DNA of 64,000 nucleotides from contig JAIPEE010000012.1 of assembly GCA_021737275.1 (NCBI GenBank), positions 1 to 64,000 on the forward strand. Direction: 5' to 3'. Below, piece after piece: positions 14,171-38,643 of the stretch; the stretch's first letter is position 1; each line of letters starts with the position of its first letter. Made by a program: the position numbers and the translations under genes. The notes beneath the pieces are model-generated. The model ran no database searches and was not told where the DNA came from. It was given only the letters and a program-made list of their open reading frames with translations. The DNA is from Desulfobacterales bacterium. GTDB lineage: Bacteria; Desulfobacterota; Desulfobacteria; Desulfobacterales; JAIPEE01.

Positions 14171-14268
14171 GGAAGTGGACAGCTCACTGGTGGGGCTCCC
14201 GGACTTCAAATCCGGTGTGGGGCGCTAATCACGTCCCGGGTGGGTTCGATTCCCATGCACTTCCGCCA
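14171..14268 (+). tRNA. selC: tRNA-Sec (UCA anticodon)
   Basis: A 98-nt tRNA with encoded CCA. The acceptor arms GGAAGTG and CACTTCC pair, the anticodon loop CTTCAAA shows TCA (14206-14208), there is a long variable arm (about 14214-14240), and a standard T-arm with GGTTCGATTCC. The long acceptor/variable arm and UCA anticodon identify a selenocysteine tRNA, so the organism should decode some UGA codons. No selA, selB or selD and no obvious selenoprotein gene lies in the window. Its 3' end is the left edge of the accessory region. Confidence 0.95.
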
Positions 14269-18246: not shown

Positions 18247-18867
18247 TCAACCGGCGGGTCCATGATCGAACTCGATAATTCGGGCGAATTGTTTGTCCGG
18301 ACCCGGTTCCACCGCATGATACAACGGACTGTCTGTGGTCACCCGTCCGCCCATGTCATAGTTAAACGACGCTTGGGCAACGTGTCGGAACCAATACCCG
18401 AATCGAACAGCACCACGATTGTCGTAGGCTGAGTGAAAGTGGACATATTCATTAAGGGGTGCCGGTCGTGAGTTCAGCCAGGATTTGGGTGCCTGTGAAA
18501 AAAAGACCGGTACGATACGTCTGCCGTCTGCCGGGATGACGGTTTGGGTGTCTTCCGGCAGGTGCCGCCAGCGGGCGTGGCCTGAGTACAACTGTGAGTT
18601 AGCCGGCAAGTCAAGTGTGTAAAAGGACCGTTCATTGAAACAGACAAAATCAAGCTGGCTCAGATCTTCAACAGACGAAGGTTTGAAGTAGTATCCCACA
18701 AACGGACCGAACGACAAAACACGATCGCCTACCTGAATTTCAAGGCGATCCACATAACCGACAGGCACCGGCGGTTTTTCAAAAAGAGCTTCAGTCGGTC
18801 CCGATCCGCATGCGCTAATAATAAACCACATTATAAGCCAGCCCGATTTAGTCAGTTGTCGAGTCAT
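18247..18867 (-). CDS. lipoprotein of unknown function
   Basis: 206 residues with an N-terminal signal and a lipobox ending FIISAC, so lipid attachment at Cys20 is expected. The mature part is mixed beta-like with many aromatic residues (YYF, HARWRHLPEDT, YVHFHSAYDN, YWFRHV). I recognise no family. The start overlaps the end of the YeeE/YedE gene by 20 bp, so it is the last gene of the rhodanese-YeeE-YedE operon and probably works in the same exported sulfur chemistry (inference). Confidence 0.7.
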   Translation of the reverse strand: MTRQLTKSGWLIMWFIISACGSGPTEALFEKPPVPVGYVDRLEIQVGDRVLSFGPFVGYYFKPSSVEDLSQLDFVCFNERSFYTLDLPANSQLYSGHARWRHLPEDTQTVIPADGRRIVPVFFSQAPKSWLNSRPAPLNEYVHFHSAYDNRGAVRFGYWFRHVAQASFNYDMGGRVTTDSPLYHAVEPGPDKQFARIIEFDHGPAG

Positions 18868-19393
18868 TTTTCCAGATCCTGCCGATCAAATAGATAATGA
18901 TGCATATAATGAATAAAACAATCACCAAAGCCAGAAAATGATTCCCGATCAAATCCGGTACAGTTAGCCGGCCCATATTGGTGGGATCATACAGCAGGGG
19001 GATCAACCGTTCATGCAGATGTGCGAATACCGCTGCGCCTGCCATACCCCCCACCAATGCAAATACTGCATCCAGCCGTCCTTCACCCACAGCCGCCCAG
19101 GTTGTACCGGGGCAATACCCACATAACCCCCAACCGATACCGAATATTGCTGCAGCCAAACCAGTTGCCACTAAGCTGATGGGCAGTATAACCGTATGTC
19201 CGATACCTGCTGTCTGCAGGCCGAAAAGCCCGACTGCTGAAAGAGCTACTGTGGCTAACATAAATTGCGGAATGTTGGCATCGATCATCAAGTGTGAGCG
19301 GGTCATGCGGTCGGGATCAGTGGCTCCGCTCCGCTGTATGACAAAGCCAAAAGCAATTCCTGAAAATAATCCGAGTAACAGTTTATCGATCAT
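18848..19393 (-). CDS. YeeE/YedE family membrane protein (second of pair)
   Basis: 181 residues with about four to five membrane segments and the family's signature GWGLCGYCPGTTWAA, whose cysteines are thought to handle sulfur atoms during transport. In related half-size pairs (PmpA/PmpB-like) two such proteins form one sulfur-compound transporter. The ATG overlaps the stop of the previous gene (ATGA). The operon also contains a signal-peptide rhodanese and a lipoprotein, all in one direction. Confidence 0.87.
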   Translation of the reverse strand: MIDKLLLGLFSGIAFGFVIQRSGATDPDRMTRSHLMIDANIPQFMLATVALSAVGLFGLQTAGIGHTVILPISLVATGLAAAIFGIGWGLCGYCPGTTWAAVGEGRLDAVFALVGGMAGAAVFAHLHERLIPLLYDPTNMGRLTVPDLIGNHFLALVIVLFIICIIIYLIGRIWKNDSTTD

Positions 19394-19914
19394 TTTTCCT
19401 CCTTGCCGTAGATCAGACGTGCCGTCAGCATGGCAAAACCAAAAATCAACACACCAAAATACAGTCCACTCAAGGCCAGCTGTGTTGACCCGGAAATAAA
19501 TAAACCCAGCGTACAGCCACCGGCCAGACGTGAGGCAAACAGGATAAGGAATCCGCCTAAAAAGGTGGCGGTGTATCGTGTTATTTGACTGTCGCCGAAA
19601 CGCCTGCGCCAGAGGGACGGCACATCCGTAATTGATCGTTTTAAGGTGCGCCCGCCGATGAAACCACCGATAGCCATGCCGAGAATAAATGTAAAAAGCC
19701 AGGAGCCCGGACCTGGTATTATTCGATAATGGACTTTGGATTGAACGTAGTCAGGGACAACGTTTGACAAGGCTCCCTTGAGTGTGCTGACAAAGCCGCT
19801 GGATGAGGCCGGTGGGCCGAAGGTAGCAAAGATAAACACAATCACTCCGGCCAGGGCAAAGGCGGCCGGCAGCCAATTCCAATATCTGTTATTCTTCAAT
19901 TGATGTTGATCCAT
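19390..19914 (-). CDS. YeeE/YedE family membrane protein (first of pair)
   Basis: 174 residues, four to five membrane segments, with GFIGGR and RLAGGCTLGLFISGS, the cysteine-bearing family motif. It should pair with the next gene to make a complete sulfur-compound (for example thiosulfate-derived sulfur) channel. The frame extends upstream to 19929, but GGAGG sits six bases before the ATG at 19914, so that start is used, leaving 2 bp to the rhodanese stop. Confidence 0.87.
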   Translation of the reverse strand: MDQHQLKNNRYWNWLPAAFALAGVIVFIFATFGPPASSSGFVSTLKGALSNVVPDYVQSKVHYRIIPGPGSWLFTFILGMAIGGFIGGRTLKRSITDVPSLWRRRFGDSQITRYTATFLGGFLILFASRLAGGCTLGLFISGSTQLALSGLYFGVLIFGFAMLTARLIYGKEEK

Positions 19915-19916
19915 TT

Positions 19917-21002
19917 TTAACCTCCGCAAGAAACATAACCGGCTTTGGGTGGTGTGTTGCCGTTAGACGAAGAATCCGGACGGCTTGCCGATTGATTGAT
20001 GTCAGATGACGTTCCCGGCAAACCGGAATCGACCAGGCTGTGGATCACAGTTTCAACCGGAAAGAAATTGGCAGGCTTGCCCCATTGTTTCCAGGACGGT
20101 TCGTAGGTCAACACATTATCGATACCCATCAGTCTGAGCACATAATAACTGAAAGAACTGCGACGTCCCGAGTTGCAATAAACGATAATTGTTTTCTCCG
20201 TATCCAGTCCGCGGTATAGATCCTGCAACATACTATAGGATTTGATCTTCTTTGCTATGGTGTCGCGCCAGTTTAGCGTATAGTCGATGTTGACAGCCGT
20301 GGGGATGTGGCCCATCTTCAATCCGTTGCCCTGAAGGTCCCGGGTGCCCTTTTCGCCTTTATACTCTTCTGGTGAGCGTACATCAATGATCTGATAGTGT
20401 AGGTCACCCAATTTACTGTAAACATCGTCCCCGTCGATCAGGCCCCTGCCACGGATCTCCTGCATGGGCGCCTGATATAGGATCGGTGTTAATTCTTTCT
20501 GTTTGGAGACAAGGTCGTAACCGGCGGATTCCCAGGCATCAATGCCGCCGTTCAGAATCTTTTTGCTTTCATGGCCTAAAATATCCAGTATCCAGAACAG
20601 ATAAGAAGCCGTTGCACCACCGTCACGGGCAACCGAGTCATAAAGTATAATGGTGTGAGTGCGACCGATACCCCGGCTCCCGAGAATTTCCTGTGCTCGA
20701 GCCACGCCGACGAAAAGGCTGCCCTCATTAGCTTCCGTTTTGTTATAACGAAAGAGCGACCACGGCAGCCGAATGGCACCGGGTATCAATCGTCCGTCAA
20801 AATGCTCATCGGTGCGAACATCAACGATTAATATGTGATCATCACCGGCATGTTGATCCAACCATTGCGGCGTGGCCATGAGATCGCCGTTAGGATAATC
20901 CGGGACGCTTCCCTGTTCAGCGGATGCCAGGGACCAGACCACACCCAGTAAGAGCAGGGTCGCCAAAATTAAATAGCGCAGCGCTCTTTTTTTATTTGCC
21001 AT
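19917..21002 (-). CDS. exported tandem rhodanese (sulfurtransferase)
   Basis: 361 residues with a signal peptide (about 1-28) and two rhodanese domains. The first (about 45-155) has VDVRTDEHFDGRLIPGAI but lacks a catalytic Cys. The second (about 180-315) has the active loop YCNSGRRSS. A low-complexity tail ends in VSCGG at the very C-terminus, an extra Cys that could carry sulfur. The start at 21002 is chosen because GGAG lies five bases before it. It begins the operon with the YeeE/YedE pair, so it probably loads or unloads sulfur for that transporter in the periplasm. Confidence 0.87.
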   Translation of the reverse strand: MANKKRALRYLILATLLLLGVVWSLASAEQGSVPDYPNGDLMATPQWLDQHAGDDHILIVDVRTDEHFDGRLIPGAIRLPWSLFRYNKTEANEGSLFVGVARAQEILGSRGIGRTHTIILYDSVARDGGATASYLFWILDILGHESKKILNGGIDAWESAGYDLVSKQKELTPILYQAPMQEIRGRGLIDGDDVYSKLGDLHYQIIDVRSPEEYKGEKGTRDLQGNGLKMGHIPTAVNIDYTLNWRDTIAKKIKSYSMLQDLYRGLDTEKTIIVYCNSGRRSSFSYYVLRLMGIDNVLTYEPSWKQWGKPANFFPVETVIHSLVDSGLPGTSSDINQSASRPDSSSNGNTPPKAGYVSCGG

Positions 21003-21122
21003 TTTTTCTCCTTTCAAAAAAAATCATGAGCGGACCTGCCTGCAAGCCCTTAGATGAATGAATCGATGATATATTTGAACATAATCATATTTAAATGATA
21101 CGTGATTGATAAACTTTTGAGA

Positions 21123-36523: not shown

Positions 36524-38643
36524 TCATTTATTTAACATTTTTGCATTAATTGCCACAATAACAGTTGAAAGCGACATTACCACGGCACCGGCTGCGGGAG
36601 GGAGAAGAAGCTGGTAAAACGGATATAAAATTCCAGCGGCCAGCGGTATGGCAAAGGCATTGTATCCAGTAGCCCACCACAGGTTCTGAACCATCTTTGC
36701 ATAGGTTACGATAGACAACTCAATGACGGTGGCAACATCTCCGGGATCGGAACGAACCAACACCATATCAGCGGCTTCCATGGCCACGTCTGTACCAGCC
36801 CCAATGCCGATACCAACATCGGCCTGGGCCAGGGCGGGGGCATCGTTTATTCCGTCTCCTACCATAGCGGTTTTCAGTCCTTTATCCATGATCTTTTTAA
36901 TTTGCGTCGCTTTTCCGTCCGGCAGAACTTCAGCAAAATAATCATCCAGATTCAGCTTCTTTGCCACTTTTTCTGCCACCGCTTTTGAATCGCCGGTGAG
37001 CATCATGACCTTCAATCCCATCTCCTTTAATCGGGATACCGCTTTTTCGGCAGACTGGCGAACAATATCTTCCAAGGCCAATGCGCCTTCAAGAAGGTTG
37101 TCCACTAAAAGATAAACAACCGTTTTACCCTCGTCTGCCAGTTGTTTAACCGTGTTATTGTCAATGCTGATATCATTTTCATCTAAATATCCGGGACTGA
37201 CGACCTTGATGTTTTTTCCATCAGCAATTGCTTCCGCCCCTTTTCCCGGAATAGCATTAAAATTTTTCGAATCGATAAGATCTATGTCGCGATCCATGGC
37301 CGCATCCACAATTCCGCGGGCAATGGCATGCTCGGAATGATTTTCCAGCCCGGCAGCCAGCTTAAGAATGTCGTCTTCGGACCGATCGTTTAAAGAAACA
37401 ATATTCGACACACCGAAACGCCCTTCCGTTAAGGTGCCGGTTTTATCAAAAACAATCACGTCAAGATCTTTTGCTTTTTCAAATGCCGTCCGGTTCCTGA
37501 TCAAAAGACCCTTTTTTGCGGCCATGGCAGTGGATACCGCCACCACCAGGGGTACGGCCAGACCCAGTGCATGAGGACAGGTGATTACCATCACTGTGAC
37601 CATCCGTTCCAGCGAAAATACAAACTCTCGGTCGGCCAGCAGCCAGGCAAGCAATGTCACTACCCCTGATGTCAGAGCAATGATGGTCAGCCAAAAGGCG
37701 GCCCGATCCGCTGTGTTCTGCGCTTTGGAGCCGGATTCCTGAGCCTTTTTAACCATATGGACCACCTGGGAGAGATAGGTTTCATCACCGGTTTTTTGAA
37801 TATTTATCTCAATGGCGGAATCTCCGTTGACACTGCCGCCGATCACTTCGTCGCCCTCGCTTTTTTCCACCTGCCTGCTTTCGCCGGTAACCATGGATTC
37901 ATCAATGCTTGTGCGTCCATCCACAATGACACCGTCCGTGGGAATTTTTTCCCCGGGTTTGACTGCCACACGGTCGTCAGGCTTCAGGTCGGAAACCGTC
38001 ACTTCCTCAGTTTTACCATCTTTAGTGATGCGATGCGCTTTTGACGGAATCAGCTTAACCAGTTCCTCTAAAGCCCCGGAAGCCCCCATCACGGACCGCA
38101 TTTCAATCCAGTGGCCGAGAAGCATAATGTCGATCAGGGTGGCCAGCTCCCAGAAAAAAACTTTTCCCGGCAAACCGAAGACAACTGCACTGCTATAAGT
38201 ATATGCCACAAGAACTGCCATACCGATCAGGGTCATCATGCCCGGTTCTTTTTTTTTCAGTTCATCAAAAAGCCCTTTTAAAAAAGGCCAGCCCCCGTAA
38301 AAAAAACAATGGTGGCAAAACCGAACTGGATATAGCTGTCGCCGGCAAAATCCCATTTGCTCTTAACATCCATAAATTCCTGGATGAGAGGCGCCAGCAG
38401 GACGACCGGGATGCTAAAAGCAAGAGAAACCCAGAACCGAAGCCTGAAGTCGACTACCATGTGTGCATGGTGGTTCTGATGGTCCTCGTGTTCACTATGA
38501 TCGCCATTATTTTCATGGCTCTTGTGATTTTTGTAATTCCCATGATCCTTATGGTTATTGCTATGTTGATTATTATGCTTTTCATGGTCACTACGGCCAT
38601 CTTGCGGAGTGTCATGATTCTGTTGATCTGAAGATTTACTCAT
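36524..38643 (-). pseudogene. copB: CopB-type copper P-type ATPase, split by a frameshift
   Basis: Two adjacent frames together encode a complete P1B-type ATPase. 38278-38643 holds the His-rich N-terminus (14 His in about 60 residues) and the first membrane segment, ending ATIVFFTGAGLF. The frame from about 38356 to 36524 continues with FFYGGWPFLKGLFDELKKK and carries TGES, the CPH motif (ITCPHALGL), DKTGTLTEGR and GDGINDAP. CPH plus the His-rich N-terminus points to the P1B-3 CopB group (Cu export). The break is at a run of 8 A (38300-38307; T8 in the message), where 9 would restore one frame. It may be a mutation, sequencing error, or slippage site. Confidence 0.82.

Follow-up and report, generated by a model that had tools for sequence, protein, structure and literature searches.

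A predicted exported rhodanese with an invariant cysteine tail, encoded with a split YeeE/YedE channel and a new lipoprotein in Desulfobacterales: a candidate periplasmic sulfur relay

Two cysteines of the YeeE-family thiosulfate channel TsuA, Cys91 and Cys293, are reported to be indispensable, and a heterodimer has been proposed for PmpA and PmpB, which are short halves of the YeeE/YedE family (PMC11582611; PMC, PubMed Central). In SoxY, the cysteine of a C-terminal GGCGG sequence binds the sulfur substrate (PMC6067878). As a route by which extracellular sulfane sulfur could arrive at YeeE-type channels, a hand-over from the SoxY cysteine to the channel cysteines of SoxT has been called "conceivable" (PMC11582611). 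Here we analyze a four-gene unit located in a stretch of 64,000 nucleotides (nt) of Desulfobacterales DNA (GenBank assembly GCA_021737275.1, contig JAIPEE010000012.1, positions 1 to 64,000; hereafter the window). This unit, at positions 18247-21002 of the minus strand, encodes a tandem rhodanese with a putative signal peptide, two halves of a YeeE/YedE channel and a lipoprotein (Table 1). Enzyme, probable arm and channel come here as one compact linked set, in genomes without a SoxY match, and for this reason the transfer from arm to channel is directly open to experiment.

The rhodanese matches PF00581 in two stretches with 115.9 bits (gathering threshold 22.2; E = 1.3e-33), which is its only Pfam match at E up to 1, and the nearest sequence in the PDB is 8k55 (E = 6e-33). 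Its presumed export signal has counterparts in similar N-termini of the related rhodaneses. The first-pass annotation of this DNA had described one active and one inactive rhodanese domain, and the sequence bears this out: the active loop of domain 2 (CNSGRRSS) holds Cys276, and the equivalent site of domain 1 (YDSVARDGG) has no cysteine. In 29 of the 32 intact orthologues the mature protein has no cysteine apart from that of the active site and that of the tail; the other three have one more.

The tail cysteine, Cys359, belongs to a G-Y-x-S-C-G-G motif with which all 32 intact orthologues end (x is Val in 26, Ile in 4, Ala in 1 and Met in 1). We fixed this motif on the first 20 orthologues, and the remaining 12 were found afterwards. 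Ahead of it lies a linker that varies from 35 to 47 residues across the 32 genomes, 77-95% of them small or polar. Among the first 20 orthologues, the tail has a mean pairwise identity of 0.96, against 0.26 for the linker (columns 321-354) and 0.60 and 0.61 for the two domains. A tail that varies freely among orthologues had been named beforehand as the refuting outcome; instead, the end is kept without exception beside a hypervariable linker. A DNA pattern made from the tail and run against 395 genomes of the phylum matched the 11 orthologues present there, gave single matches outside the coding frame in two genomes (G107 and G321), and hit one spacer (in G009) of an array of clustered regularly interspaced short palindromic repeats (CRISPR), while the reversed control pattern had no match in these 395 genomes. 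A structure model of the rhodanese, built on an alignment of 4 sequences, shows the two rhodanese domains followed by a C-terminal part that lacks structure; its mean predicted local distance difference test (pLDDT) value is 69.7, and the linker reaches about 30-45 in this shallow model. When a genome collection was scanned with the rhodanese, four remote relatives (27-33% identity) were recovered, and the three whose ends were read (L013, L014 and L015) carry no such tail. One of these, from Nitrospirae bacterium CG1_02_44_142 (L015, 3239-7023), looks like an exported protein and has its rhodanese domains in tandem but no Cys tail; it is grouped with a 476-residue open reading frame (ORF) that appears YeeE/YedE-like by eye and with a stress-protein-like ORF. 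The pairing of channel and rhodanese may extend beyond the tailed kind.

Judged from the ORF list and the sequence, the four genes overlap or almost abut: 2 nt separate the rhodanese stop from the ATG of the first YeeE half (19914), the two halves overlap by 4 nt, and the second half and the lipoprotein gene overlap by 20 nt. The ATG of the rhodanese is directly preceded by AGGAG; a TTG further upstream, at 21017, was judged a less likely start. That the genes form one unit, as had been suggested, is confirmed by these ORFs and by their recurrence in relatives. The lipoprotein was found in 11 of 96 relatives, 11 of 395 genomes of the phylum and 25 of 291 genomes of the order; these samples overlap and amount to 34 distinct carriers. 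Co-occurrence of the lipoprotein with YeeE/YedE genes had been proposed earlier as a check, and the lipoprotein does co-occur with this rhodanese and YeeE pair. The full-length rhodanese was present in the same 11 of the 96 genomes, with E values up to 6.7e-111, whereas 33 of the 96 give a rhodanese match of some kind at an E value of 0.001 or less. It was also present in the same 11 of the 395, with E values up to 6.8e-150; the matches that follow lie near 1e-45, and 18 genomes pass at 1e-40. An intact rhodanese is encoded by 32 of the 34 carriers, and in all 32 it is followed consecutively by both YeeE halves, although in G188 the series is divided between the ends of two contigs. The lipoprotein gene stands last in 24 genomes, before the rhodanese in 7 and elsewhere in 1 (G075); the 7 include G083, where the ends of the two contigs have 127 nt in common and whose lipoprotein is split over two reading frames. 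Since the same four families occur together in 32 genomes and the seven-residue tail is retained in every one of them, the unit is more than a chance arrangement.

Genes beyond these four are not shared among the first 20 genomes, except between a few close relatives, and the distribution is patchy, with sisters of the same family that do not possess the unit (e.g., G014 beside G079). Across 19 genomes the four proteins agree in their pairwise distances (r = 0.60-0.83), a result that common ancestry alone could yield. Most genomes of the order probably belong to sulfate reducers, since 89 of 96 gave a match to dsrA; the carrier G079 gave none. Carriage on mobile elements was considered and rejected: the lipoprotein had no match in plasmids or phages and no relative in viral contigs, and the rhodanese had no plasmid match at E = 1e-40. 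The CRISPR array of G009 contains a self-targeting spacer of about 40 nt, whose sequence is that of the last part of the tailed rhodanese gene in this very genome together with the start of the next gene; it occurs twice, in a duplicated stretch (L115, 7933-7973 and 8522-8562; contig 1, about 2920932 and 2921521), and may reflect past movement of the unit on mobile DNA. In G586, which also has an intact unit, a second, decayed copy of the lipoprotein gene lies on contig 68 (L157, 5673-6057).

The two channel genes match opposite halves of the PF04143 profile with 52.9 and 41.5 bits (gathering threshold 27), the first half covering profile positions 173-305 and the second positions 24-149; the second half also matches PF20398. 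Each half has one cysteine that is invariant in 20 of 20 sequences. Their correspondence to the two essential cysteines of TsuA was read from HMMER alignments to S. thermophila TsuA, with positions counted off the printed alignments. Another split YeeE pair, nearer to TsuA by score, is encoded on contig 20 of the window's genome (L123, 4668-5836), and the ORFs listed there include no adjoining rhodanese or lipoprotein.

The lipoprotein has a SAC|G lipobox, and one further cysteine, Cys76, is invariant together with His143, His145, His162 and His184 in 19 of 19 aligned sequences, an alignment from which the frameshifted copy of G083 was left out. Its description in the first-pass annotation as a protein outside known families holds: the best Pfam match had E = 0.37, NCBIfam gave none, ten relatives scanned singly were assigned to no family, and a profile of the relatives searched against the PDB reached E = 0.45 at best. 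A single-sequence structure model was useless (mean pLDDT 33.7). The lipoprotein defines a family that has no name as yet and is clearly marked by its conserved Cys and His residues, which may form a thiol or metal site.

Taken together, these features suggest a periplasmic relay for sulfane sulfur in which a swinging-arm rhodanese feeds a split YeeE-type channel; we put the probability of this reading at roughly 0.6. With thiosulfate, polysulfide or a persulfide as donor in the periplasm, the exported rhodanese would take up sulfane sulfur on Cys276 and hand it over, in persulfide form, to Cys359, which is followed by only two more residues. Riding on a presumably flexible tether of 35-47 residues, Cys359 would act as a SoxY-like arm and offer the sulfur to Cys94 and Cys134 of the channel. 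The onward path would most likely lead inward, to TusA-type acceptors in the cytoplasm. Given its conserved Cys and His cluster, the lipoprotein could dock the rhodanese or serve as a second site for sulfur or metal. The cysteines are in keeping with the earlier idea of a capture of reduced sulfur on the outer side of the membrane, here with a YeeE-type channel as its recipient, and the TusA family was found in 20 of 20 carriers searched (in one below the cut-off). Several observations speak against this relay. The four-gene unit itself contains neither TusA nor another cytoplasmic partner; one carrier (G633) has an intact lipoprotein beside a broken rhodanese and a broken YeeE pair, and another (G552) retains nothing but a 40-residue remnant of the lipoprotein. 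The low model confidence in the tail is weak evidence, given the 4 sequences behind it, and the Gly-Gly codons double as a probable ribosome-binding site. Binding or disulfide formation could be the role of the tail cysteine instead, and fusions of the channel to CopB-type ATPases suggest a metal-related role that plain import does not explain.

If the tail bound rather than carried, it would be a docking peptide or disulfide anchor, with Cys359 joined to Cys76 of the lipoprotein or to a channel cysteine, so that the enzyme is tethered at the membrane and no sulfur travels on the tail. Every partner does possess one invariant cysteine outside the lipobox, and the conserved Gly-Tyr and Gly-Gly around the cysteine would suit a bound peptide. 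We regard this as improbable: sulfur transfer is the more economical account of a tail that shares its chain with a catalytic rhodanese cysteine and has sulfur channels as partners, and a C-terminal Cys-Gly-Gly resembles a known sulfur carrier arm (PMC6067878). One could also take the tail for a by-product of the ribosome-binding site of the next gene, read as Gly-Gly and devoid of function in the protein. A GGAGG, which the first-pass annotation did not mention, lies within the Gly-Gly codons in 18 of the first 20 genomes and 11 of the other 12 (29 of 32), immediately upstream of the next start codon, and because it is so well placed for that gene, the conservation of Gly-Gly is probably in part DNA-driven. 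Synonymous codons differ at every position of the tail, with Gly, Tyr, Ser and Cys fixed as residues; Gly-Tyr, Ser and Cys each use several codons, so GGAGG could not have fixed them, and Gly-Gly persists in the three genomes that have lost GGAGG (G266, G390 and G555). As an explanation of Cys, Ser and Tyr this artefact is rejected, and for the tail as a whole we consider it highly improbable. The selenium capture and transport put forward in the first-pass annotation fared no better and seems scarcely credible. A tRNA for selenocysteine (tRNA-Sec) does lie near the unit in the window, and putative selenium transporters exist among YedE relatives, but no tRNA-Sec was found near any of 22 other loci of the unit that we examined, SelD occurs in 87 of 96 genomes of the order without separating carriers from non-carriers, and the window's genome has a separate cluster on another contig (C63) that comprises a YedE dedicated to selenium (492.5 bits against a cut-off of 200), YedF-type proteins and SelD.

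Another reading is a role in defence against copper or other metals. The YeeE pair and the rhodanese would move sulfur in one direction or the other and periplasmic copper would be bound as a sulfur complex, with the Cys/His cluster of the lipoprotein as a metal site and CopB exporting copper. In three genomes (G083, G500 and G561) the second YeeE half is fused in frame to a CopB-type (CPH) P1B ATPase through a His-bearing linker, long in two of them and short in the third, and a CopB-type ATPase gene follows the lipoprotein gene after about 200 nt in G069 and about 35 nt in G595. The window itself has an ATPase core (36524-38356) that is 77% identical, about 15.5 kb from the unit. CopB-like matches of at least 60% identity occurred in 6 of 11 carriers vs 1 of 12 non-carriers (Fisher p = 0.027). 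As non-carriers we took the first 12 genomes in handle order that reach 95% completeness and do not exceed 2% contamination; the comparison is small, and its two groups lack phylogenetic matching. The fusions are limited to two families, CopB was neither fused nor adjacent in the stretches read for 29 of the 34 carriers, a few of these stretches being short, and the lipoprotein belongs to no known metal-binding family. We therefore hold the copper reading to be doubtful, and we likewise lend little credence to a bolder version, a new type of relay in which a sulfurtransferase with its own arm and a split YeeE are coupled to CopB, so that sulfur transfer and copper export would be one process and the Cys/His residues of the lipoprotein a metal-sulfur site. 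The YeeE-CopB fusions, a link absent from the first-pass annotation, nonetheless hint, unexpectedly, at a joint action of sulfur channels and copper pumps. The window's CopB-type ATPase gene (36524-38643, minus strand), which encodes a His-rich N-terminus, appears to be spread over two frames (ORFs 38278-38643 and 36524-38356); either damage to the gene or faulty assembly may account for this. ATPases of the CPC type were seen in the examined stretches of G042, G075, G083 and G500, and a partial one lies near the decayed copy in G586.

Table 1. Positions of the unit, its functional residues and associated features (window coordinates unless a locus is named).
Feature	Position	Strand	Remarks
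Exported tandem rhodanese	19917..21002	-	361 residues; ATG 21002, stop at 19917
Signal peptide, residues 1-28	20919..21002	-	By eye: basic n-region, hydrophobic core, SLASA end
Codon of catalytic Cys276, rhodanese domain 2	20175..20177	-	Invariant 20/20; aligns to active-loop Cys of 8k55
Variable linker, residues 317-354	19941..20054	-	38 residues in the window rhodanese
C-terminal tail GYVSCGG	19920..19940	-	Cys359 codon 19926-19928
GGAGG, probable ribosome-binding site of next gene	19921..19925	-	Inside Gly-Gly codons
First YeeE/YedE half, PmpA-like (C-terminal half)	19390..19914	-	174 residues; PF04143 E = 1.6e-10
Cys134 codon, first half	19513-19515	-	Aligns with TsuA Cys293
Second YeeE/YedE half, PmpB-like (N-terminal half)	18848..19393	-	181 residues; PF04143 E = 5.2e-14
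Cys94 codon, second half	19112-19114	-	Aligns with TsuA Cys91
Lipoprotein of no known family	18247..18867	-	206 residues; no Pfam, NCBIfam or PDB family
Lipobox Cys20 codon	18808-18810	-	
Cys76 codon, sole other lipoprotein cysteine	18640-18642	-	
tRNA-Sec	14171-14268		Confirmed real; about 4 kb from the unit
YeeE half-ATPase fusion, G083	L058 3089-6208		
YeeE half-ATPase fusion, G500	L149 470-3688		
YeeE half-ATPase fusion, G561	L154 1277-3919		

In the open-licence literature of PMC we found no description of a rhodanese with such a tail or of this four-gene unit, and its parts resemble several described systems to different degrees. SoxY, a component of SoxYZ, is likewise periplasmic and bears a C-terminal Cys with Gly-Gly on an arm, a likeness mirrored in the rhodanese by a tail kept in 32 of 32 orthologues behind a linker of 26% identity; its body, in contrast, is a rhodanese enzyme that has no SoxY domain (PF13501). 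SoxY was matched in 0 of 96 genomes of the order, in a search run without a positive control, so that its absence is unproved. ExtH is exported. It shares rhodanese domains and membership of an operon, that for selenite/tellurite in Geobacter, with the protein described here, but the latter scores 44.2 bits against a cut-off of 200 (NF040901) and is not an ExtH, and the ExtH operon, according to a published abstract, contains a porin-like protein and cytochromes. The selenium YedE family (TIGR04112) was rejected as well, one half scoring 15.3 bits and the other nothing against a cut-off of 200. The YTD cluster of sulfur disproportionators and cable bacteria, composed of YeeE, TusA and DsrEFH (type II), resembles the unit in its YeeE-family sulfur transport and its occurrence in Desulfobacterota (PMC13293266, PMC13047784); the unit differs in having an exported rhodanese and a lipoprotein in place of TusA and DsrE genes, and its flanks are not conserved. 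With the thiosulfate uptake system TsuA/YeeE-TsuB/YeeD (6leo, 8j4c) it has the channel family and the two essential cysteines in common, yet there is no TusA-like partner, the first TsuA cysteine is unmatched in the alignment with the second YeeE half, and this half, at 34.5 bits against 645 (NF041049) and 29.5 against 400 (NF052577), does not qualify as TsuA. PmpA and PmpB correspond to the pair, with matches to the C- and N-terminal halves of YeeE and one conserved cysteine in each. Compared with the about 130 residues given for PmpA and PmpB (PMC11582611), the halves in the window are longer, and they differ in their consistent linkage with the genes for a tailed rhodanese and for a new lipoprotein.

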